Shown here: positions 41,651 through 52,787 of the stretch, piece after piece
Position numbering within the stretch: position 1 is the stretch's first letter
Layout of the letters: each line of letters begins with the position of its first letter
Assembly (NCBI GenBank): GCA_039555135.1
Contig: CP114179.1
Coordinates: 4,526,001 to 4,590,000 of the forward strand
Origin: Phycisphaeraceae bacterium D3-23
GTDB lineage: Bacteria > Planctomycetota > Phycisphaerae > Phycisphaerales > Phycisphaeraceae
Direction: 5' to 3'
DNA length: 64,000 bases
Made by a program: the position numbers and the translations under genes
Notes under the pieces: generated by a model
What the model saw: the letters and a program-made list of their open reading frames with translations, nothing else
Databases searched by the model: none
What the model was told of the DNA's origin: nothing

Positions 41651-42613
41651 ATGCCTGGCCAGCCCCCGCTACAACCCGTGCTGTTTGACGCCGAGCAGGC
41701 CCATGAGCCCCCTGCGCGGGCTGCCCGCCGGAGAAGTTTGGACCCCCGGCCCGGGGTCCGGCTGTGCGTGCTGGGCAGCGGGTCGGGCGGCAACTGCACC
41801 GTCGTCCAGCTCACCGGGGCCGACGGCCAGCGCGACGCCGTCCTGCTCGACGCCGGTTTCGGCCCACGCCGCACGACCCGCAAACTCGCCGAGGCGGGGC
41901 TTGGCTTCGAAGACCTCCGCGCCGTCTGCGTGACGCACTTCGACCAGGACCACTTCAAGCCCTCGCTCATCAAGACCCTCGTCGCGTACGGCATCGCGCT
42001 CCACTGCCACCACTGGCACCTGCCCGACCTCAACAAAGTACGCGGTGCGCAAAAACTCTTCGACGCCGGGCTTGTCGAGCCGTTCGGCGACGGGCTCTTT
42101 GTCCCCGTCCCCGGCTTCACCGCGACGACCACCCGGCTCCAGCACGACCGCCAGGGCACGATCGGCTACCGGCTGTCCTCACGCTTCGGCGACGTCGGCT
42201 TCGCCACCGACCTGGGCCACGCCCCGGCCGCGCTCATCGACCACCTCGCCGGCGTCGACATCCTCTGCATCGAAAGCAACTACGACGAACGCATGACCAC
42301 CCAAAGCAGCCGGCCCGTCTGGGTCAACCGACGAAACCTCTCCGACTCCGGGCACCTGAGCAACGAACAATCCTTCGCGGCAGTGTGCGCAATCCGTGAC
42401 CGCAGCCCGCACGGCAACCCGCGGCACGTCGTCCTGCTCCACCGCTCGTCGCAGTGCAACCACGCGACCAAAGTCCGGCGCGTCTTCGAGCGCGACCCGC
42501 AGATCGCCAAACGTACCACGCAGACCAACCAGCGCACCCGCACGCGCTGGATCAACCTGCGTCCCATGCACCAGGTCAAGCGCCGACAGCTCTGCCTCGC
42601 CACCGCCGTCTAG
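41651..42613 (+). CDS. MBL-fold metallo-hydrolase (YycJ-like)
   Basis: 320 residues. The metallo-beta-lactamase fold begins RLCVLGSGSGGNCTVV, as in the YycJ/WalJ group. The metal motif is HFDQDH (residues 96-101); the usual HxHxDH has Asp in place of the second His. Further ligands are GFATDLGHAP and the Asp/Glu in CIESNYD. The end has HVVLLHRSSQCN. It is probably a nuclease or phosphodiesterase; the family has links to DNA repair and cell wall control. The ATG at 41651 is the last in-frame start before the conserved fold, so the start is uncertain. Confidence 0.8.
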   Translation: MPGQPPLQPVLFDAEQAHEPPARAARRRSLDPRPGVRLCVLGSGSGGNCTVVQLTGADGQRDAVLLDAGFGPRRTTRKLAEAGLGFEDLRAVCVTHFDQDHFKPSLIKTLVAYGIALHCHHWHLPDLNKVRGAQKLFDAGLVEPFGDGLFVPVPGFTATTTRLQHDRQGTIGYRLSSRFGDVGFATDLGHAPAALIDHLAGVDILCIESNYDERMTTQSSRPVWVNRRNLSDSGHLSNEQSFAAVCAIRDRSPHGNPRHVVLLHRSSQCNHATKVRRVFERDPQIAKRTTQTNQRTRTRWINLRPMHQVKRRQLCLATAV

Positions 42614-42676
42614 CTCAAAGCGTAACGCGCCCCAGGCCGACGCTGAGTCCGCGAAGCGTCTGGTTCCTCCAAGGCC

Positions 42677-44014
42677 TCACTCAAACATCGCCTCGAGCAC
42701 GACATCCCGCACCGCCGTGCAGGGCAAGGCCTCCCCCGCTCGCCCCGCGCCGATCATCACGGGCTGAAGCTCCGGCGGGTTGTCCACCCGCCCGTGCGTC
42801 CCGCGCACGAGCGACGTATCGAGCGGGATCACATCCATCAACTGCCGAAACCCCAGCTTCTTCCGAAGCAGCTTCCACGCGATCGCGGGCTTCGACCTGT
42901 CCGTAAACAGCTCACGCGGGTCGTAGCCCGGCTTGCGGTGGATATCAACCGTCCGCGCAAAATCGGGCAGGTGAACCGGGCCGGCCGCGCCACTCCCGGG
43001 GGTGGGCCAGTAGTCGTAGGTAAACCAGTAGCCCGGGTCGGCGACCAGCACCGTCCGCCCCGCGCGTTCGTGGTCGATCGCCGTGGCGGTGCAGTGCGGG
43101 ATGTCGGGGAGCGCGACGCCGGCATCGTGGTACACATGCGCGACCTGATGGTCCGCCACCGCAAACGCGCGCGAGGCCCCGGCATCGAGGAGTTCGCTAT
43201 CGCCCTCAAGCCGGGTCGCCAGCAACCCCGCATTGCGCAGATGCCGATTCACCGCAATCGCGCCGTCACCGGCTACGCAGTCTTCGATGCCGTACTCGCT
43301 GACGATGATGACTTTCGTATCGCGTCCGTGGAAGTAATCGATCAGATCGCCGACCACCGCGTCGACCTCCGCGACGTGCTGCGGGATATCCGAGTGCGAA
43401 GGCCCGAGCTTCTGCAAGCCATAGTCCAGGTGCGGCAGATAGCACAGCGTCAGCGTCGGGCCGTACTTCGCATGCGCGAGCTTCGTCGCCTCGGCGATCC
43501 ATCGCGTCGATGCGATGTCCGCCATCGGCCCCCAGAACTTGAACAGCGGGAACATGCCGAGCCCCTCGGAAGTAGACGCCTGTAGTTCATCGCGCAGGTC
43601 GGCGGGGTGCGAATAGCAGTCGGGGACCTTGCGGCCATCGGCCTTGTACTGCGGACGCGGCGTCACCGACCAGTCGGCCGACGAGTACATGTTGTACCAC
43701 CAGAACATATTCAGGCAGGTCGTCGAGGCGTCACGTTTTCGTGCGGTTTCCCAGACCTTCTCGCCGTGGACCAGCTTATTGGACTGCTTCCAGAACTGGA
43801 CTTCCTGCTGGGCGTGGTTGAACCAGCCGTTGCCGACGATGCCGTGCCCGGAGACGGGGAGCCCCGTGAGCATGGACGACTGCACCGAGCACGTCACGGC
43901 CGGGAGCACCGGCGTCAGCGTCGCGTGGTCGCCCAGCGCATGGATGCGCGGCGCATGCGCCAATAGCGAAGGCGACAACCCCACCACATTCAAGACCGCA
44001 ACAGCGTTTGGCAT
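42677..44014 (-). CDS. Alkaline phosphatase-superfamily phosphodiesterase, probable EboF
   Basis: 445 residues. An alkaline-phosphatase/nucleotide pyrophosphatase fold: the nucleophile is the Thr in LPAVTCSVQSSMLTG, metal ligands are in YLPHLDYGLQKLGPSHSD and VSEYGIEDC, and the C-terminal block is RTVLVADPGYWFTYDYW. It lies downstream of an EboC-like prenyltransferase and an EboE-like protein. In ebo clusters a phosphodiesterase of this superfamily, EboF, is found in the same position. The family and cluster calls are from memory. No signal peptide is visible. Confidence 0.75.
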   Translation of the reverse strand: MPNAVAVLNVVGLSPSLLAHAPRIHALGDHATLTPVLPAVTCSVQSSMLTGLPVSGHGIVGNGWFNHAQQEVQFWKQSNKLVHGEKVWETARKRDASTTCLNMFWWYNMYSSADWSVTPRPQYKADGRKVPDCYSHPADLRDELQASTSEGLGMFPLFKFWGPMADIASTRWIAEATKLAHAKYGPTLTLCYLPHLDYGLQKLGPSHSDIPQHVAEVDAVVGDLIDYFHGRDTKVIIVSEYGIEDCVAGDGAIAVNRHLRNAGLLATRLEGDSELLDAGASRAFAVADHQVAHVYHDAGVALPDIPHCTATAIDHERAGRTVLVADPGYWFTYDYWPTPGSGAAGPVHLPDFARTVDIHRKPGYDPRELFTDRSKPAIAWKLLRKKLGFRQLMDVIPLDTSLVRGTHGRVDNPPELQPVMIGAGRAGEALPCTAVRDVVLEAMFE

Positions 44015-44027
44015 GGGCAGATTGTAG

Positions 44028-44116
44028 TTAGCCGCCGCGTCACACGCGGCGGGATTCCCCTTAGCCGTCGCCGCCGCGGCGACGCGCAGTCTCCCCCGTG
44101 TATGACGCGGCGGTTA
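44028..44116. repeat. Inverted repeat with CCGCCGCGTCA arms between two ebo genes
   Basis: TTAGCCGCCGCGTCA at 44028-44042 pairs with TGACGCGGCGGTTA at 44103-44116 (one mismatch and one missing base). Within it are a CCGCCGCG hairpin (44032-44051) and a TTAGCCGTCGCC word (44061-44072) like that of the 1500 and 40546 elements. The right end includes the stop codon of the UbiA-like gene. Confidence 0.7.
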
Positions 44117-44956
44117 CGACCCCGCGATCCGCCGATGCCCGAGCTTCGTCAGCCCCGCACACCCCACACACACCAGCGACGCCGGCCAAAGCCCCATCAA
44201 CACCAGCCACAACGCATCCAGCAACGGCATCGCCGCGATCATGTTCATGATGGTCTTTGGGCCATCGAACCATCTCCGACATCTCGGGTCGGCTTCCCGG
44301 CGGGCCGCGGCCGAGATAAGACCCGTGTATGCAAACGCGGGTATCGCTACGCCGACCACAACGAGCCAGAACGCCAGGACGGCCTTCGGTAACGACTCAT
44401 GGATGGGCAGTGGTACGAAGGCCAACGCTGCGCAGGTCAGTACAAGCAGCGACCGGCAGGCCCCCATAAGCATGACAGTAAGCGCAGATTTCTGGTGCAA
44501 GATGTTGTAAAGAAACACTATCACGACCAGACCTAATGCCAGGAGGACGGCAGGGCTCAGGAATAGTTTTGCACCGTTCGCTTGACTGAGTCGATCGGTG
44601 AGCACGACACATGCAAGGCCCAGCAGCAGCATAAACACCGCAAGTGCTCTGGCCGCCGGGATGCTGATACGGCCCGATGGGATGGGCCTGCCGGGGCGCT
44701 CAAGCGCATCCACATCGCGATCGATATAGTCGTTCATCACCATCCCGCCGCTATAAATCAGACTCATGGCGAGCGCGGCGAGGACGCCAATCCCCGAGAG
44801 GTAGTACCAATTCTCGAAGAAGACCGGAGCGTCTTCGCCGAGGCCAGAGGTGAGCATGGCGGCATAATTGCCCGCCAACCAGCCCATCCACGTGTTGCTC
44901 CACACCGTCGGCAGGTTCGACACGCGCATCAATTCAAGCAGGGCGCGGAACTTCAT
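44114..44956 (-). CDS. UbiA-family prenyltransferase, probable EboC
   Basis: 280 residues, about eight membrane helices. It begins FRALLELMRVSNLPTVWSNTWMGWLAGNY. The Asp-rich diphosphate motif is NDYIDRDVDALERPGRPIPSG. The second Asp motif of classic UbiA is weak. UbiA-type proteins attach prenyl groups to ring compounds; EboC-type members accompany a metabolite transport function. The start overlaps the end of the EboE gene by 4 bases (ATGA), so they are translated together. Confidence 0.82.
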   Translation of the reverse strand: MKFRALLELMRVSNLPTVWSNTWMGWLAGNYAAMLTSGLGEDAPVFFENWYYLSGIGVLAALAMSLIYSGGMVMNDYIDRDVDALERPGRPIPSGRISIPAARALAVFMLLLGLACVVLTDRLSQANGAKLFLSPAVLLALGLVVIVFLYNILHQKSALTVMLMGACRSLLVLTCAALAFVPLPIHESLPKAVLAFWLVVVGVAIPAFAYTGLISAAARREADPRCRRWFDGPKTIMNMIAAMPLLDALWLVLMGLWPASLVCVGCAGLTKLGHRRIAGS

Positions 44957-46194
44957 GCGGGTTCGGCTCCGTCACGTACCCAAGCCAGCTCGTCCGCAAT
45001 CCCCTCGGCCAGCGTGTCCCGCTTCAACGCCTCGGGCAGCACACCCCACGCGTACGTCTCGACCTCGTAATGGTTCACGTGGTCGGCGCGACTGCCGGCG
45101 GATTGTCGGCCGAGTTGGCGCAGGCAATCCAACACATCACTCCGCGTCGTTTCGATGGCTCCGAAACGTTCGAGGTACACCGGGACGTGGAAATGCACAC
45201 GCCACTCGCCGCGCGGCTCGTCATTGACGGATTCGACCGCCGCGATCGCGTCGGGCAGGTCGGCGTAGAACGCGGTCTCGCCATACGCGTAGCGGATCGA
45301 GGTCTGGTGCTGGTAGCGGTCTTCGCACAGCGACTTGAGCTGCGCGAGAGCATCGTCGCGCTCGGCACCCACAAGTGCATCGAACGGGACACGAACGGCG
45401 CTGCTGAGCTGTACCTTGCCGATGCGGAGCCCGGCCTGGGCGTAGGCCCGGAGTGCCTCAACCTGCGGCTCGAACATCACGGCCGAGTGGCATACATCAT
45501 GACACACACGCAGGTAGCCGCGGATCGTCTCGTCATCCGGCGTGCCCAGCAGGTAACGCTCGAAAAAGTCCGCCATGCCGGGCGCAGTATCGATACAGCA
45601 GCCGGGCTCGGGCTCGAGGTCGATGTGGATGCACTTGCCGGTGTCGAGCTCGATGCGGGCGAGGTAGTGCGTGAGGTCGGTGAGCTGCGCGGCGCATTGC
45701 CTGGCGAAGTCGGGGTCGAGCGTTGCGGGGGTCTCCAGGTTGTGCCGGAGCCCACCCTCTACGGGCCAGCCCAGCGGGAGGGTCGAGATGCTGCCCTCTG
45801 CAGCGTCGTCGGGCAAGAGCTCGCTCAGGATCGTCGCGAGCGCCAGCGTGTAGTCGTAGCGTTCGCGCACCGCCCAGGTCGGTTGGTAGACCTTTGTCTT
45901 GACACGGGGCTGGTGGAAGTCGCTGAACGGGAAGCCGTTGAGCGTGTAGGGCAAGAGCCCTTGGTCGAACATCCACTTGCGCAGGTCGGCGATCGCGCCG
46001 GGCTGCGCGAGCGCCTGCGCGGCCGCGTCGAAGGCGAACCAAAGCCCGACGCCCATCGGCGACTCGGGGGAGAAGCGGCGTTTGACCGGCAGGGCGTGCG
46101 CAAGGAGGTTGGCACGCACGGCGTCGAGGGTGACGCCGGCATGGACGTTGGTGCAGTAGCCGAGGATGGTGCCGGGGCCGAGCGTGGGGTGCAT
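44953..46194 (-). CDS. EboE-like TIM-barrel protein
   Basis: 413 residues. A xylose-isomerase-like TIM barrel: LGPGTILGYCTNVHAGVTL at the start, GLWFAFDAAAQAL, LPYTLNGFPFSDFHQPRVKTKVYQPTW, CIHIDLEPEPGCCIDTA, LRVCHDVCHSAVMFE and VHFHVPVYLERFG. His, Asp and Glu residues at strand ends can form a metal site. EboE is needed in cyanobacteria to move scytonemin precursors to the periplasm. No eboA, eboB or eboD gene is next to it. An earlier ATG at 46224 is possible. Confidence 0.82.
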   Translation of the reverse strand: MHPTLGPGTILGYCTNVHAGVTLDAVRANLLAHALPVKRRFSPESPMGVGLWFAFDAAAQALAQPGAIADLRKWMFDQGLLPYTLNGFPFSDFHQPRVKTKVYQPTWAVRERYDYTLALATILSELLPDDAAEGSISTLPLGWPVEGGLRHNLETPATLDPDFARQCAAQLTDLTHYLARIELDTGKCIHIDLEPEPGCCIDTAPGMADFFERYLLGTPDDETIRGYLRVCHDVCHSAVMFEPQVEALRAYAQAGLRIGKVQLSSAVRVPFDALVGAERDDALAQLKSLCEDRYQHQTSIRYAYGETAFYADLPDAIAAVESVNDEPRGEWRVHFHVPVYLERFGAIETTRSDVLDCLRQLGRQSAGSRADHVNHYEVETYAWGVLPEALKRDTLAEGIADELAWVRDGAEPA

Positions 46195-46268
46195 GATTGA
46201 AGTGTAACCGCCGAATGCGTGCATGGGGCCAGCCGATCGATGTGGGTCGCCGGTGCTAAACTACGCAG

Positions 46269-47296
46269 ATGCCTGACGCTCTTGATCCCGAGCCGCTTGA
46301 CCTGCCCAGCCGTCCGCGCCGCAACCGCCGTTCGCCCGCGATCCGTGGGCTGGTGCGTGAGACGACGCTTGCCGTGTCGCAACTGATCTACCCGATGTTT
46401 GTCCACGACAAGGCCGACGCGCCGATCGACGCGATGCCGGGGCAGACGTCCTGGTCGCTCGACGGGCTGGTGGATGAGGTGGGGCGGGCGCAGGCGCTGG
46501 GGGTCGCGGCGGTGCTGCTGTTCGCCAAGTGCCCGGCCGCGCTGAAAACCCCGGCCGGCGACGAGGCGCACAACCCCGACGGGCTCATGCAGCGCGCAGT
46601 GCGCGCGGTCAAGCGGGGGCACCGCGACATGTGCGTGATGACGGATGTCGCGCTGGACCCGTACAGCAGCGATGGCCACGACGGGCTCGTGTCGGACACC
46701 GGCGAGGTGCTCAACGACGCGTCGATTGAAGTGCTGTGCGCGCAATCCGTCTCGCACGCCGAGGCCGGGGCCGACGTGGTGGCGCCCAGCGACATGATGG
46801 ACGGCAGGGTCGGCGCGATCCGCAACGCGCTCGACGGCGCAGGGTTTACGAACACCGGCATCATGAGCTACACCGCGAAGTACGCCTCATCCTTCTACGG
46901 CCCGTTCCGCGGCGCACTGGACTCCGCGCCCCAGCAATCGACGGCCGGCAAAGTCATCCCCGGCGATAAGTCGACGTACCAGATGGACCCGGCCAACGCG
47001 CGCGCGAGGCGCTGCGCGAGCTGGACCTGGATACCGAGGAGGGTGCCGACATCGTGCTGGTCAAGCCGGCGGGGCCTTACCTCGATGTGATCCACCGGCT
47101 GCGCGGCGCGACGGACCTGCCGATCGCGGCGTACCAGGTGAGCGGCGAGTATGTGATGATTAAAGCCGCTGCGGCGGGGGGCTACCTCGACGAGCGGGCG
47201 GTCGTGATGGAGACGTTGCTCGGTATCCGCCGGGCGGGCGCCGATATGATCCTGACATACTTCGCGCCGCAGGTCGCGGCGTGGCTGAATGAGTAG
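46269..47296 (+). CDS. hemB: Delta-aminolevulinic acid dehydratase (porphobilinogen synthase), frameshifted
   Basis: Joins two ALA molecules into porphobilinogen in haem synthesis. The N-terminal part has [47 protein letters not shown] (first active Lys) and [12 protein letters not shown]. The C-terminal part has [14 protein letters not shown] and [13 protein letters not shown] (Schiff-base Lys). Between them the frame shifts by two bases in a (CG)5 stretch at 46997-47006; removing one CG gives the expected [17 protein letters not shown]. The lack of the Cys triad (DPYSSDGHD) means it is the Mg-dependent, not the zinc-dependent, type. Confidence 0.9.
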
Positions 47297-47465
47297 GGTG
47301 GGTGGGGCAAGTCCGCGAACGATACCCACCGAAGACCACAGAGCACGAAGCGTTAGCGAGTGTCTGGCTCACGGGGCATCATCACTTGTTCACGCTTCGT
47401 GCGCTGACCAACCCACCCGACGGGTTCGGTGAAAATCGCCCACGGACTCGCTGCACCCACCCTAC
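47293..47465. repeat. Long inverted repeat GTAGGGTGGGTG / CACCCACCCTAC
   Basis: 12-bp exact arms at 47293-47304 and 47454-47465, about 150 bp apart. GCGAACGATACCCACC lies near the left arm and CACGGACTCGCTGCACCCACC precedes the right one; the latter matches the loop of the 13562 element. It begins inside the hemB stop codon. It may be two copies facing each other with foreign DNA between. Confidence 0.7.
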
Positions 47466-47925: not shown

Positions 47926-49399
47926 CTAGCGCCCGGAGAGTTCGCGCTGGCGGTTTTCGACGCGTTGCCTCAGGTCGGCGAGCATCGCTTCGAGGATCTC
48001 GGCCTGGACCTCGGGGTCGCCCGTCACGTTGATCCGGAAGTTTCGGGTGTCGGCGTAGATCGTCTCGATCAGCCCGTCGGCGAGCACCTTGGTCCGGCTG
48101 GCCTGCCAGATCTCGTTGGCGGTGAGCTGGGGCTGGGCGGTGAAGAGCGCGCGGTAGGAGTTGAAACGCTTGTACTCGCTCTCGATACGTGCCACGGCCT
48201 CCGTCTGGTAGGTCTGCGCGCTGTTGATCGCGCGGGCGACCTCCCCGCCGATGGGACGGCCGCTGCGTTCTTCACGCGGGGCGGCGGAGGCCTGGGCGAG
48301 CGCCGCGAGCAGCTCGGCCCGTGCGGCGCTACGCGCCGCCTGAAGCTCGGCCTCGCTGGCCGCGTCGGGCGCGGTCTGGGTCATCGCGTCGAGGTAGTCG
48401 ATAACGCGTCCGTCTACGGGCGCGCCGAACATCTGCAGGTCGACAAACGAGCGGTCGATCTCGGCGCGGAGCGCGGGGGGCGAGCTCGGCATCGTTCGCG
48501 CCGCCCGCGGTCTCGAAGGCGCGGATCATCGCCGTCAGGTCGCGGTGCGCGCCGCCGGCGACGCCGTTGAGTGTCTCGGCGGCAGACTGACGCGCGTTCT
48601 GGATCACGGTGCCACGGTCCTGTTCGGCGGCGGAGACCAGCCGATAGGCGGACTCCTGGATCTGCACCGGCGGCGAGGGGCTGTCGACACGGATCTGCTG
48701 GATCACAAGCCCGGTGTTCAGGTCGGAGAGCACTTCGTTGGCCAGCCGCAGGGCGACCGTGACCTGACTGGCGGCCTGGCGGTTGATGACCTGCTTGGCA
48801 TCGGCGGAGGCCATGGCGATGACGATGCCGCGTTCGGTGGCCATGCGGACGATCTGCTGGGCGCGTTCGGTGTCGCCGACATTTTCGATGTAGTCGCCGA
48901 CCCCGGACTGCCCTTCCGCGTCCGCGATCTTGAAGCTGACGTTGAATTTCATGTGGACGACGTTGGCGTCGCCGGTGATGAGGAAGCCGTCCGTCAGCGG
49001 GTTGAGCGGTCGGCGGGCGGCGGCGGCCGCGCCGTTGCCTTCGGGGTCGTCGTACCAGAAGGACTTGTCGATCGTGAGCTGCTGCTCGGTGACGGGCACC
49101 TGCACGATTTCTTCGATCGGGAAGGGCAGGCCGAAATGCCAGCCCGGCTTGTACGTGCCGATGCGTTCGCCGAAGCGTAGGCGGACGGCCTCGTTGCCTT
49201 CGCTGACCTGGAAGATGCCGCTGAGCAGGTACACGACGATCAAGACAAAGAGCAGGCCTTTGAGCACGGTGAAGCTGACGCCCAGCGCGTCGGACAGCGA
49301 CTGCTGGGCCGTGTCCAGGCCGGGCTCGCCCGCCGCGTGGGTATGCGGCTTGGCGGCGTGGTCGTGGTCGTGGTCGTGCGGGGGGGTCGCGTCGCTCAC
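47926..49399 (-). CDS. SPFH-domain protein, HflK-like, frameshifted
   Basis: The SPFH/HflK family forms cage complexes with HflC around FtsH and controls membrane protein turnover. The N-terminal 30 residues are His/Asp-rich (HDHDHDHAAKPHTHAA), then comes one membrane helix (FTVLKGLLFVLIVVYLLSGIF) and the SPFH domain (EGNEAVRLRFGERIGTYKPGWHFGLPFPIEEIVQVPV). At 48475-48480 a run of six G shifts the frame; dropping one gives AELAPALRAEIDRSFVDLQMFGAP and a normal coiled-coil C-terminus to 47926. The full length would be about 490 residues. The start overlaps the HflC-like stop by 4 bases. Confidence 0.85.
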
Positions 49400-50421
49400 T
49401 GCCCGGCCCCCGTCGTGGTAGTCGTGGGTTCAACCGCGTCGGGACGCAGTGGCGAGAGGTGGGACGCTTCGGGGTTGCCCAGTGCGCCCAGCCGGGAGAC
49501 ATCGCCGCCTGCGCCCGGCCCCATGAAGTAGACGTTGAACGGGTTGAGCTGGGTGACGTCGATGACGAGTGTCGAGCGGTTGCCGAGGATCATCTCGGCC
49601 GCCTCGATCTGACGGAGGAAGATCGCGATGGTTTCGTCCTCTTCGCTCTGCGCGAAGCGGGACATGTACTCGGCGACTTCGTCTTCGCCGACGGTGCGGA
49701 TCTGCTGGGCGACCTGGCCGGCGAAGGCGATGACGATCCCGCGGGCGGCCTCGGCCTCGCTGGTGATGTTGCCGGCCTCGGCGGTGCCCTCGGTGAGGAT
49801 CACGGCGGCGAGGGCGGACTGCGTCGCCGACATGCGCTCGTTGACCTTGGTCGCGGTGGACTCGGTGTAGAGCAGCCGGCCCATCGAGACACGCTCGATC
49901 GTGATGCCGTAGCTGGGCTGGATCGCGTCGATCTGCGCCTGGAACTCGGCGGCGACGTCGGCCTCGAGCTGTGCCATCTGCACCTTGCTCGGGTCGGGGT
50001 TGACCAGTTGATCGAAGTTGTACTGCGTGATGACGCTGCGCAGGTTCTGCATCAGCGACTTGAGCGTGTCGTTCGCGCCGTTCTCGCCTTCGATGGTTCG
50101 CAGGCTCCTGAAGAAGTCCAGCGGGTTGCTGATACGCCAGGCGACGGACATGTTGACGATGACGGTGTTGCCGTCGGGCAGGAGGATTTCCTCGGGGTTG
50201 TCCTGGAGGACCTGAACCTGCTTGGGGTAGGTCTCAACACGGTCGATGGGCCAGGGTGCCCGGAAGTGCCAGCCCGGCTCTTCGATAACCGCGTTGTCGC
50301 CGGCCTTGCCGAAGCGGGTCTTGACGGCGGTCTCGTTGTAGGCCACGGTGTAGCTCACCATGTAGGCGAGGAAGACCAGTGCGATGAAGATGGCCAAAGC
50401 GGCGGTTGAAAAGCGTCTCAT
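49396..50421 (-). CDS. SPFH-domain protein, HflC-like
   Basis: 341 residues. One N-terminal helix (STAALAIFIALVFLAYMVSYTV), then NETAVKTRFGKAGDNAVIEEPGWHFRAPWPIDRVETYPKQVQVL, the SPFH start. A long helical region follows (AQLEADVAAEFQAQIDAIQ, ATKVNERMSATQSALAAVILTEGTAEAGNITSEAEAARGIVI), as in HflC. The C-terminal extension (about 60 residues) is Pro/Thr-rich and soluble. It is the middle gene of three SPFH genes on the minus strand. Confidence 0.85.
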   Translation of the reverse strand: MRRFSTAALAIFIALVFLAYMVSYTVAYNETAVKTRFGKAGDNAVIEEPGWHFRAPWPIDRVETYPKQVQVLQDNPEEILLPDGNTVIVNMSVAWRISNPLDFFRSLRTIEGENGANDTLKSLMQNLRSVITQYNFDQLVNPDPSKVQMAQLEADVAAEFQAQIDAIQPSYGITIERVSMGRLLYTESTATKVNERMSATQSALAAVILTEGTAEAGNITSEAEAARGIVIAFAGQVAQQIRTVGEDEVAEYMSRFAQSEEDETIAIFLRQIEAAEMILGNRSTLVIDVTQLNPFNVYFMGPGAGGDVSRLGALGNPEASHLSPLRPDAVEPTTTTTGAGQ

Positions 50422-50486
50422 GGCGGGTACGTCTCGGGCGGGTCGTGGATCAGGGATGGATAAATGCGTGGGTATCGTCGCGTTGC

Positions 50487-52577
50487 TCAGCGGCCGCCGG
50501 GCCCGCTGATCGCGGGCTGGGGCATGTCGAGGACGATGTTGGGCTCCGCGCCTTCGGCGGGGAGGATAAAGATCTTGGGCCGGTCGGTGATGGTCGCGGC
50601 GAGCATGTCGAGGTAGCGACGCATCGGGTAGTAGCGCGGCGCGTTGTGGAACGCGCGGATCTCGGACTGGCGACGCAGCGCCCGGGCCTGGGCGTCGAGC
50701 GAGAGCGACCAGCGGTCGGCCCGGGCCTGCATGATGAGCTGCCCGGAGTTGCCGCCCGATTCGAGCAGCAACAACTCGACCGAGGCCTGCTTCTCGGGGA
50801 TCAGCGTTTCGAGCTCGGCCAGCCGATCGGCGTCGGGGTTGTCTGCGTTACGCAAGGCGACCGCTTCGTTTTCCAGTGCCTGGAGTTGGCGGATCTGGTC
50901 GGCGATCTCGAGCGCCGCCTCGCGCGACCCCGCGACGGTGGCGAGCATCACCGCGGCCTCCTGCCGGGCCTGCTGGATCGTCGTCTGCTTTTCCTGCAAC
51001 GCGTTGACGCGCTGGTGGTACTGGTCGGCCACGTCCTGGGGTGGGTGGACGCCCGAGACCGAGACGAACACGACCTCGAGCCCGACCTGGTACGTGTCGA
51101 GCTGTTCTTGGATGCGCCGCTGGATCGTCTCGCCCGAGGTCATCCGGCCGGTGGTGAGCAGGGTCTGCGTGTCGTGCGTCGCGAAGAAGAGCGTCACCTG
51201 CTGCTCGGCGATCGCACGGAGCAGTTCCTCGGGCGACTGGGCGCTGGCCTCGGGGTTCGAGATGCCCAAGTACTGCCGGAGATCGGTGATGCGGAAGCGG
51301 ATGTCGATGTCGGCCCCGAGCATCTCGCCCAGCGCGCTGTCGGTGCGCCCTGCGTCCTCGGCGTTGGGCGTCGGCGCGGTCACGAGGAGCTGCTCGCTCG
51401 CGCCTTCACCGACGTGGGCGTTGGTCCAGAGGATGGGGCCGTCAATCGCTTCCTCCACGTGGGCCCGCGAGCCCAGGCGGATCGTGTGGACGCGGTTGAC
51501 GTCGTACTTCGTTGCCCGGCCGATCGGCCAGGGGAGCTTGAAGTTCAGCCCGGGCTCTGCGATCTTCGTAAACGCGCCGTTGGTCGTGACCACCGCCTGC
51601 TGGTGGGGCTCGACGATGACCAGACTCGACATACCGACCACGATCATCACACACACGATGCACAGCGGCACCAGCGACTTGCCCAACAGCTGCATAAACC
51701 AGCTGCGCGAGATCTCGAAGCCGAACTGGTAGTTGAGCGTCTCCGAGAAGATCTTGCCCATCGACTCGGGCCGGGTCAGCCAGCCCAGCACCCGGCTGTC
51801 AAACGCGGGTCGCACAAACTCGTCCGCCTTGCGTGGGCGGTAGAGCCCGAACACGAACCCGAGCACGATCTCAATCCCCAGCAGCACCATAATGCCTGGC
51901 ACGACGACGGCCAGCACCGCGAGGATCGATTTGGCCCCGACGGCGAGCCCGATCGTGCCGATGAGTAGGGGAAGGACGCCGAGGAACACGTTGCCGATGA
52001 GGAAGCTCGCCCCGCCGCGCAGGCCCTGCCAGGCATCGACCCGAGTCATGCCCGCGACATAGCGCGAGACGAGGAAGCCCATCAGCCCGCAGGTGACGAG
52101 CAGCAGGGCGACGAACGCGACGTTGAGGTCGGGGTTGGCCGGGTTCTCAAACAGCCCGCCGTCCTGGAGCGCGGGCATGTTGCGGTAGAGCAGGAACACG
52201 CCCAGCCCGAGCAGGTACAGCGCGGTGGCCGCGCTGACAATCGGGAGCCCCCACTTGTAGAGGTTGTCCAGCCGGGTGCGGGACTGCGCGAGCTGTGCGC
52301 CGGCCTCGTCGAAGATCGCGGCCGAGGCGGCGTCGGAGTCCGCAAGCCGGGCGGCTTCGAGCGACTCGACGCGCTCGTGTCGGTGCTGATTAAACAGAAG
52401 CCAGAGCACCGCCCAGATGGCGAGCCCGGGCAGGAGGTACCACGTCACGGCATGGAACGCGGGCGAATCCGCGTACACGCCGAGGATCGCGATGAACAGC
52501 GTCAAGACCACATGGGTCGCAAAGCCCACGAGGGCGGCGGTGGTTGCGCGTTGATACGTCTGCTGGTCCTGGTTCAT
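50487..52577 (-). CDS. Multi-spanning SPFH-domain protein
   Basis: 696 residues. Unlike its partners it begins with about seven membrane helices in roughly the first 310 residues (for example ALVGFATHVVLTLFIAILGV, TWYLLPGLAIWAVLWLLF, LPIVSAATALYLLGLGVFLLY, FLIGNVFLGVLPLLIGTIGL). The SPFH domain follows (VIVEPHQQAVVTTNGAFTKIAEPGLNFKLPWPIGRATKYDVN), then a coiled coil (NALQEKQTTIQQARQEAAVML). It is the first gene of the operon. The ATG at 52575-52577 is used here; one further upstream is possible. It could be an anchor for the HflK/HflC-like pair. Confidence 0.82.
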   Translation of the reverse strand: MNQDQQTYQRATTAALVGFATHVVLTLFIAILGVYADSPAFHAVTWYLLPGLAIWAVLWLLFNQHRHERVESLEAARLADSDAASAAIFDEAGAQLAQSRTRLDNLYKWGLPIVSAATALYLLGLGVFLLYRNMPALQDGGLFENPANPDLNVAFVALLLVTCGLMGFLVSRYVAGMTRVDAWQGLRGGASFLIGNVFLGVLPLLIGTIGLAVGAKSILAVLAVVVPGIMVLLGIEIVLGFVFGLYRPRKADEFVRPAFDSRVLGWLTRPESMGKIFSETLNYQFGFEISRSWFMQLLGKSLVPLCIVCVMIVVGMSSLVIVEPHQQAVVTTNGAFTKIAEPGLNFKLPWPIGRATKYDVNRVHTIRLGSRAHVEEAIDGPILWTNAHVGEGASEQLLVTAPTPNAEDAGRTDSALGEMLGADIDIRFRITDLRQYLGISNPEASAQSPEELLRAIAEQQVTLFFATHDTQTLLTTGRMTSGETIQRRIQEQLDTYQVGLEVVFVSVSGVHPPQDVADQYHQRVNALQEKQTTIQQARQEAAVMLATVAGSREAALEIADQIRQLQALENEAVALRNADNPDADRLAELETLIPEKQASVELLLLESGGNSGQLIMQARADRWSLSLDAQARALRRQSEIRAFHNAPRYYPMRRYLDMLAATITDRPKIFILPAEGAEPNIVLDMPQPAISGPGGR

Positions 52578-52787
52578 GGCAAGATCGGCTGGGCCCACGA
52601 AGGGGCGGGCGACTGGGTACGGCAGCCCGGTGGGGCGGCTGCCGGGACGACAACGGTATCGCTAACGGCTTTCTTCCCGGGCCCAACGGGCCCTCCACGC
52701 GAGCCGATTATCATAGCCCCCACGCTACTACGCCGCCAACGAGCACCGCGTTCAATCCACCAACGTCCGATAGCCCGGCCCAGCCGC

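Follow-up and report, generated by a model that had tools for sequence, protein, structure and literature searches.

Two kinds of ebo operon have been described that bear on the locus reported here. The ABCDEF operon is that of Cyanobacteria and Bacteroidota, and section 3.2 of the founding ebo paper (PMC5133447) defines eboG for groups including Deinococcus. Section 3.4.3 of that paper treats EboF as a putative hydrolase, and its section 3.7 puts forward a prenylated (isoprenoid) cyclitol. EboG is known to replace EboA in many bacteria. In Nostoc, the scytonemin monomer is reported to stay in the cytoplasm of ebo mutants (PMC6282210), and the EboC proteins of Maribacter, Zobellia and Algoriphagus are reported to farnesylate quinoline derivatives preferentially (PMC9235831). 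Here, we compare these systems with an eboE-eboC-eboF trio in a stretch of 64,000 nucleotides (the window) from the planctomycete Phycisphaeraceae bacterium D3-23, whose genome is one contig (C1) of 4,619,879 bases and 98% complete.

The trio is a real and ordinary member of a known ebo kind, split by rearrangement, and not a reduced minimal version. We propose that a complete ebo pathway of the EboG type is now divided between two loci, the trio making up one half and an eboD-eboG-eboB cluster elsewhere on the contig the other. Taken as a whole, together with the cyclitol and export mechanism outlined below, this statement seems to us probable; the anatomy of the split pathway is close to certain, and the full mechanism is a tentative proposal that falls short of an even chance. 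The EboG-type operon of Deinococcus (NZ_CP097151, NZ_CP140100) shares all six families and their order, D-G-B-E-C-F, with the host, whose version is cut between B and E and lies at two loci. Homologues of B, C, D, E and F of the ABCDEF operon are likewise all present in the host; that operon differs in its gene order and in having EboA where the host has EboG.

A sequence-only reading of the window had placed eboE, eboC and eboF together between unrelated genes, and this description holds. The three open reading frames (ORFs) lie on the minus strand in the order E, C, F, with 99 nt between eboC and eboF (Table 1), and their neighbours, a divergent hemB on one side and a convergent MBL-fold gene on the other, are unrelated to ebo according to NCBIfam and Pfam. 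No eboA, eboB or eboD adjoins the trio. That reading had left two explanations standing, a minimal set or a remainder located elsewhere, of which the second was borne out by the eboD-eboG-eboB cluster and by the contiguous D-G-B-E-C-F operon of relatives, while the first found no support. Three ebo genes found together thus do not make a minimal set, and a tempting but wrong lead is removed.

The second locus and the place of EboG

The eboD-eboG-eboB cluster is 3.94 Mb away from the trio as the contig is numbered; on a circular contig the distance would be about 0.68 Mb. In the cluster, 1.6 kb separate eboD from the EboB-like TatD gene. The host genome encodes two sugar-phosphate cyclases. The one in the cluster scored 504 bits with NF004852 (cut-off 333) and just 200 bits with TIGR01357 (cut-off 305), and was placed in EboD on these profile scores, the NCBI label of NF004852 being 3-dehydroquinate synthase. 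The other is the housekeeping AroB, a separate gene scoring 363.5 bits with TIGR01357. Because dehydroquinate synthases, the cyclase 4p53 and other solved proteins match EboD at similar strength, its substrate is not assignable. The EboB protein belongs to its family by identity: 67-75% to eight EboB proteins of the host's class, 55-57% to those of Gemmatirosa and two Deinococcus, and 41-43% to four of planctomycete family f14. Its nearest solved protein by sequence is AF_1765 (3guw; E 7e-36).

The 102-residue protein encoded between eboD and eboB has no Pfam or NCBIfam match. Two Deinococcus plasmids also have a small gene between eboD and eboB; a profile built from the host protein and eight relatives gave these genes 92.5 and 73.4 bits, and EboA proteins about 0. 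We take these Deinococcus genes, by position and taxon only, to be the eboG of the founding paper. By these profile scores the 102-residue protein is EboG. Searched by sequence against solved structures, it gave nothing below E 0.03. The predicted EboG structure of a Phycisphaeraceae metagenome-assembled genome (MAG; locus L083) has three helices and was too weak to support a fold search (predicted local distance difference test score, pLDDT, 69.7; predicted template modelling score, pTM, 0.40).

The genome search that the sequence-only reading had called for, aimed at eboA, eboB and eboD, thus returned eboD and eboB at the second locus and no eboA; the reading had missed eboG, which by its position and profile match stands in the place of eboA. 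The EboA model NF035938 matched nothing in the host genome and in none of 150 genomes of the class, a search that included no genome with a known EboA and in which the built-in genome controls were silent; as a protein, Azospirillum EboA is recognised by the model at 150.6 bits. An EboA hidden elsewhere in the host genome was rejected, since the profile search of the genome gave no match. Remote homology of EboA and EboG was rejected as well: hhalign of 36 EboA against 41 EboG sequences returned a probability of 0.3% (self-control 100%), in agreement with a published negative result on their kinship.

The two families were also not seen together at single loci. A hidden Markov model (HMM) scan of 137 loci, counted as loci rather than genomes and with some repeats (L013 and L085 are both 211,130-base contigs with matching coordinates), contained 88 loci with EboB, of which 39 had EboG, 36 had EboA, none had both and 13 had neither. 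Among these 13 are eight of family f14 as well as L047 and L058, whose genomes carry EboG away from the EboB locus. The family f14 loci (L019, L022, L024, L027, L028, L030, L032, L034) run B-C-F-D-E; neither EboA nor EboG was detected in them, and they may hide another replacement.

Co-occurrence was surveyed in a single draw of 150 genomes of the class, where EboD was called strong above 400 bits. EboE over its cut-off was found in 31 genomes, EboG in 63, EboB in 84, EboF in 85 and strong EboD in 31. EboB was also present in all 63 EboG genomes, in all 31 with strong EboD, in 30 of the 31 with EboE over the cut-off and in 80 of the 85 with EboF; EboE was present in 26 of the 31 strong-EboD genomes. 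The chance of the EboB overlaps with G, E, D and F is 3e-8 or lower if genomes are treated as independent, which they are not. In 56 of 66 EboG matches, EboB follows EboG directly. EboE matches were present in 76 class genomes; in 45 of these the score was just 19-36 bits, and they were excluded from the EboE counts. Such weak matches were rejected as true EboE after the one examined, in planctomycete locus L046, proved to be a shorter TIM barrel belonging to a cluster of the inositol-synthase type.

Table 1. Coordinates of the trio, the second ebo locus of the host and inositol-type clusters of other genomes
Feature	Location	Strand	Remarks
eboE	window 44953-46194	minus	ORF opens at 46224; start at 46194 fits the protein of congener G131 better
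eboC	window 44114-44956	minus	UbiA-superfamily membrane prenyltransferase, 280 aa; start overlaps the eboE end by 4 nt
eboF	window 42677-44014	minus	alkaline-phosphatase-fold protein of PF01663, 445 aa; non-canonical metal site
Gap between eboE and divergent hemB	window 46195-46268	none	74 nt (ORF coordinates)
eboD-eboG-eboB cluster	C1:627.7-630.3 kb		eboD at C1:627993, 102-aa eboG between, EboB-like TatD at C1:629632
Inositol-type ebo cluster	L046:5839-12076		homologue and extra TIM barrel in EboD's stead
Inositol-type ebo cluster	L049:1441-10173		as above
Inositol-type ebo cluster	L039:6313-13438		as above
Inositol-type ebo cluster	L037:3408-10448		as above

EboE, EboC and EboF as family members

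EboE of the window scored 395 bits with NF035939, above the curated cut-off of 250, and its nearest named relative is that of L083 (62% identity), in a search from which records very near the host genome may have been left out. The predicted structure is of high quality (pLDDT 93.6, pTM 0.93) and shows a xylose-isomerase-like barrel. The top neighbour by VIA-align is the ketose 3-epimerase 5h1w_A (Z 24.2, root-mean-square deviation 2.4, 257 aligned residues, 8% identity), whereas Foldseek places xylose isomerases first. Since the two rankings differ and VIA-align separates the two types of neighbour by about 1 Z, the substrate of EboE is not readable from the fold. The EboE sequence itself gave nothing convincing against solved structures (a single match, E 0.61).

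EboC matches PF01040 (UbiA) above the cut-off (57.6 against 34.2 bits) and groups with the EboC proteins of complete ebo operons, and is therefore EboC in the wide sense that includes EboG-type operons. Its Asp-rich DxxDxxxD motif reads DYIDRDVD at residue 76 and is present in 72 of 79 EboC sequences; an MGxCR motif follows at residue 164 (MGACR), as in 60 of the 79. The second DxxxD motif of UbiA was not found within 90 residues downstream of MGxCR in these 60 sequences. The phylogenies that the sequence-only reading had named as its check place both EboE and EboC with the Ebo proteins of complete operons, and a position outside the Ebo clades was not borne out. For EboF, kinship with Ebo is supported by identity to EboF proteins of ebo loci: 49-62% to seven from class loci and 35-37% to four more distant ones. 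It scores 190 bits with PF01663 and is alignable to the EboF proteins of ebo operons.

EboF can also be aligned to the Xanthomonas nucleotide pyrophosphatase/phosphodiesterase (NPP) 2gsn. We take the metal ligands and the nucleophile of 2gsn to be D54, T90 (the nucleophile), D210, H214, D257, H258 and H363. Measured against these sites, EboF shares the fold family, the Thr nucleophile, and one Asp and one His of the metal site: the equivalents of T90 and D210 are kept in all 74 EboF sequences compared, and that of H363 in 72, with a gap in the other 2. Three ligand positions are changed in 74 of 74, D54 to V, I, L, A, M or C, H214 to Q and H258 to Y, and at a fourth, D257, 66 sequences have E and 8 keep D. 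D288 and H289 (74/74) and H293 (73/74) are other near-invariant residues. With three of the six ligands lost, EboF falls outside the canonical di-metal NPPs, which have six ligands and the Thr nucleophile, and the substitutions point to a different site or lost activity as the likely outcome.

Whole operons in relatives and the timing of the split

Gene order was established by tblastn on 28 class EboE loci and by the HMM scan described above. The genes D-G-B-E-C-F are contiguous at loci L009, L015, L017, L029 and L031 (genomes G072, G107, G137, G008 and G106, respectively), and at L035, L036, L083, L084, L105, L106, L115, L119 and L155. L155 is a Thermomicrobiales MAG, and two Deinococcus plasmids have the arrangement as well. 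D, G, B, E and F are all present in 14 class genomes. By coordinates, six of these have the genes close together on one contig (G008, G072, G106, G107, G137, and G084 with insertions), six have them apart (G000, G131, G066, G125, G149, and G053, where only D is displaced, by 15 kb), and two are too fragmented to tell (G039, G102). In G149, eboB, eboG, eboE-C, eboD and eboF are found at five places of one 3.8-Mb contig (C1 352312, 888885, 2034007, 2259401 and 2503772).

The host genome does not have the single operon; it has two loci, with the cut between B and E. Its congener G131 shows both sides of the cut. D-G-B adjoins a GroES-like gene and aroA in G131 as in the host, with neighbours 82-94% identical and aroA identified by TIGR01356 in both, and E-C adjoins hemB, again as in the host. 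The eboF of G131 (84% identical) is on another contig, beside the MBL, lipoprotein, nuoG and GH15 genes that are found on that side of the window's eboF. Judged by these shared neighbours, the whole genus has the D-G-B / E-C-F split, and it is simplest to suppose that eboF came away from eboC afterwards, in G131.

These observations bear on the notion that E-C-F is a self-sufficient minimal set with a function of its own, D-G-B doing something else. The genes of the trio do sit together, E and C even overlapping; D-G-B adjoins aroA in both congeners, which could mean a separate role in a shikimate context; and five class genomes have EboF and no EboB match. The separation of eboF from E-C in G131, however, means that the trio is not a conserved unit. 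EboB accompanies all but one of the EboE proteins over the cut-off and every strong EboD, six of the 14 genomes keep all the genes on one contig together, and a separate AroB exists. We therefore consider a self-sufficient trio very unlikely, and keep to the division of one complete pathway.

The trees indicate when the division took place. The EboE tree, built with a quick method, joins the window to G131 (support 99), then to L083 (98) and then to L010 of genome G078 (98), all on starred branches; the EboC tree gives the same order, {window, G131} at 100/91 and then L083 at 99/95, both starred. In L083 all six genes form a single run, and L010 has D-G-B and E-C 2.7 kb apart on one 22.5-kb contig, no eboF being found in the G078 genome. 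Because both trees put the window beside a split congener and then beside the whole operon of L083, the split is derived. When joined and split states were mapped on the EboE tree, six changes were counted, four of them forced by starred branches, and 29-31 of 500 shuffles gave a value as low; the count was made on the quick tree with 28 rows unlabelled and with L036_E, a 607-aa ORF over the length filter, left out. The operon has likely been split repeatedly across the tree, the number of events being uncertain. The split in the host shows that ebo genes can do without adjacency, in keeping with the three planctomycetes for which section 3.2 of the founding survey reports no ebo clustering (PMC5133447).

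The same evidence speaks to whether the trio came in horizontally as a fragment of its own, separately from the resident D-G-B. Such mobility has precedents, as ebo genes are found on plasmids in other phyla and the cluster is described as moving between lineages (PMC5133447). Against it, the E and C trees agree in placing the window next to G131 and then L083, both loci keep their neighbours in the congener (GroES-like gene and aroA with D, G and B; hemB beside E-C), and the local G+C content of 0.65-0.66 at the trio is that of the window. Horizontal gain of a fragment is thus, in our estimation, the least probable of the alternatives, and division of a resident operon remains our reading.

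Replacement of EboD and the proposed pathway

A variant of the ebo cluster has an inositol-3-phosphate synthase homologue instead of EboD. All five Streptomyces plasmid loci examined, from 28 Streptomyces records in the EboE search, begin with a gene annotated as inositol-3-phosphate synthase, and continue to carry an SCO3242-type EboC, a sugar-phosphate-isomerase-like protein, EboA, EboB, EboE and an EboF-type protein; no EboD or cyclase is annotated in the stretch examined. Gemmatirosa has G-B-F-C followed by an inositol-synthase homologue and a TIM barrel, and the planctomycete loci L046 and L049 have an inositol synthase, a TIM barrel, EboC, a second TIM barrel and EboF; there, EboB and EboG are on the opposite strand. 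Ketogulonicigenium has EboD. The variant, seen in Streptomyces plasmids, Gemmatirosa and planctomycete families f7 and f18, thus resembles the host in having B, C, F and either A or G in the genome, and differs in the homologue, mostly accompanied by the sugar-phosphate-isomerase-like TIM barrel, and in the lack of EboD in the stretch examined.

In the class survey, a strong inositol-synthase homologue was found in 8 of 150 genomes and strong EboD in 31, with an overlap of 0 where about 1.7 would be expected by chance; alone, this zero overlap is weak evidence. A further 65 genomes have weak homologues (59-89 bits) and no others; 8 genomes combine strong EboD with a weak inositol-synthase match, and 21 have an inositol-synthase match without EboB. 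All four combinations of the two choices are seen: A with D in Nostoc and Bacteroidota, A with the inositol synthase in Streptomyces, G with D in the host, and G with the inositol synthase in Gemmatirosa and families f7 and f18. The choice between EboA and EboG would then be independent of that between EboD and the inositol-synthase homologue.

The swap of EboD as part of ebo was not found in a literature search that covered no preprints and few subscription papers, and the word inositol is absent from the main text of both main ebo papers (PMC5133447, PMC6282210) and of PMC8879130. The SCO3242/SCO3243-type gene pair is itself already known: in its account of the CDA cluster of Streptomyces coelicolor, PMC3610822 lists SCO3242 beside SCO3243 (myo-inositol phosphate synthase), ebo going unnamed there. 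On three Streptomyces plasmids (L037, L177, L181), the inositol-type cluster is bordered by a ScyD/ScyE-family gene and a multicopper oxidase, a hint, by analogy with scytonemin, that the product is an oxidised aromatic compound dealt with outside the cytoplasm.

The simplest reading of the swap is that both routes give a cyclitol, and the swap supports a cyclitol as the product of ebo. One could go further and regard EboD and the inositol-synthase homologue as interchangeable first enzymes, the product as a prenylated inositol-type cyclitol, EboA and EboG as interchangeable accessories, and EboF not as a textbook hydrolase but as a phosphodiesterase fold, modified or inactive, by which the lipid's phosphate is read; this extended version seems to us conceivable but rather unlikely. 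The natural exchange of EboD for an inositol-phosphate-synthase homologue and the metal site of EboF, unlike that of known phosphodiesterases, provide two handles on the chemistry of the pathway, and they are worth more than the original finding of the trio.

From the observed gene content, order, split and co-occurrence, the predicted fold of EboE, the EboC motif and the altered EboF site, we infer the following enzymatic steps. EboD would cyclise a sugar phosphate into a cyclitol, which EboE, with its ketose-epimerase/xylose-isomerase fold, and EboB, with a TatD/amidohydrolase fold, would reshape or trim. EboC in the membrane would attach a prenyl chain to the cyclitol, EboG presumably being a small helical accessory protein instead of EboA. 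EboF, its nucleophile kept and the usual two-metal site gone, would handle a phosphate-bearing intermediate or merely bind it. The lipid-linked cyclitol would then serve to carry a cytoplasmic metabolite across the inner membrane, as proposed for Nostoc (PMC6282210).

The complete pathway might instead make a soluble or lipid cyclitol for its own sake, such as a protective compound, and not an export carrier. The paper that named ebo itself proposes an isoprenoid-cyclitol compound (PMC5133447, section 3.7), and no scytonemin-type gene was seen among the neighbours of the trio examined in the window. In Nostoc, however, the loss of a single ebo gene blocks the translocation of another compound, and PMC6282210 reports that a gene-specific intermediate was not seen. 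A cyclitol made for itself is therefore a possible but doubtful alternative to the carrier.

Several observations weigh against our account of a single divided pathway leading to a lipid-linked cyclitol. EboG lies away from the EboB of its genome in 10 of 66 matches. No sigma-70-like site was found in 42000-47300 of the window, and co-expression of the two loci is an assumption. EboC scored 81.9 bits with NF035940, under the cut-off of 250 and level with the SCO3242 model (81.6), and by this score is not filed under the NF035940 equivalog; the EboC of a complete Deinococcus operon likewise falls under it (106.9 bits). The branch that parts 41 EboC from 13 UbiA paralogues is weak (79/70). The three lost ligands of EboF speak against a plain hydrolase step. 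In the literature cited here, the sole ebo enzyme with measured activity is EboC of other phyla, acting on acceptors that are not cyclitols. Furthermore, the inositol-synthase homologue scored 43-47 bits in two loci with the curated model (cut-off 638), and that of Streptomyces L037 gave nothing at E 1e-10; with such low scores, its product may be other than inositol phosphate. Of the 84 EboB genomes, 53 are without strong EboD, 8 of these having the ebo-type homologue, and nine of the 84 have neither strong EboD nor any inositol-synthase match, so that a third route or a loss must also exist. Judged by these matches, the cyclitol step is not uniform across EboB genomes.

If eboE has a promoter of its own, this would be expected in the gap at 46195-46268 or inside hemB. 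Beside the trio, a run on the minus strand (window 47926-52598) looks HflK/prohibitin-like by eye, with one protein of 703 aa; its first ORF, the only one searched, matched HflK at 21.9 bits, far under the cut-off of 159.4. The hemB gene itself (window 46269-47293) reads in two frames, the change of frame lying near 46997-47003. This is either a sequencing error or a genuine frameshift, in a gene that one would expect to matter to the cell. Residues 1-245 of the G131 HemB align to one frame of the window hemB, and residues 243-341 to another.

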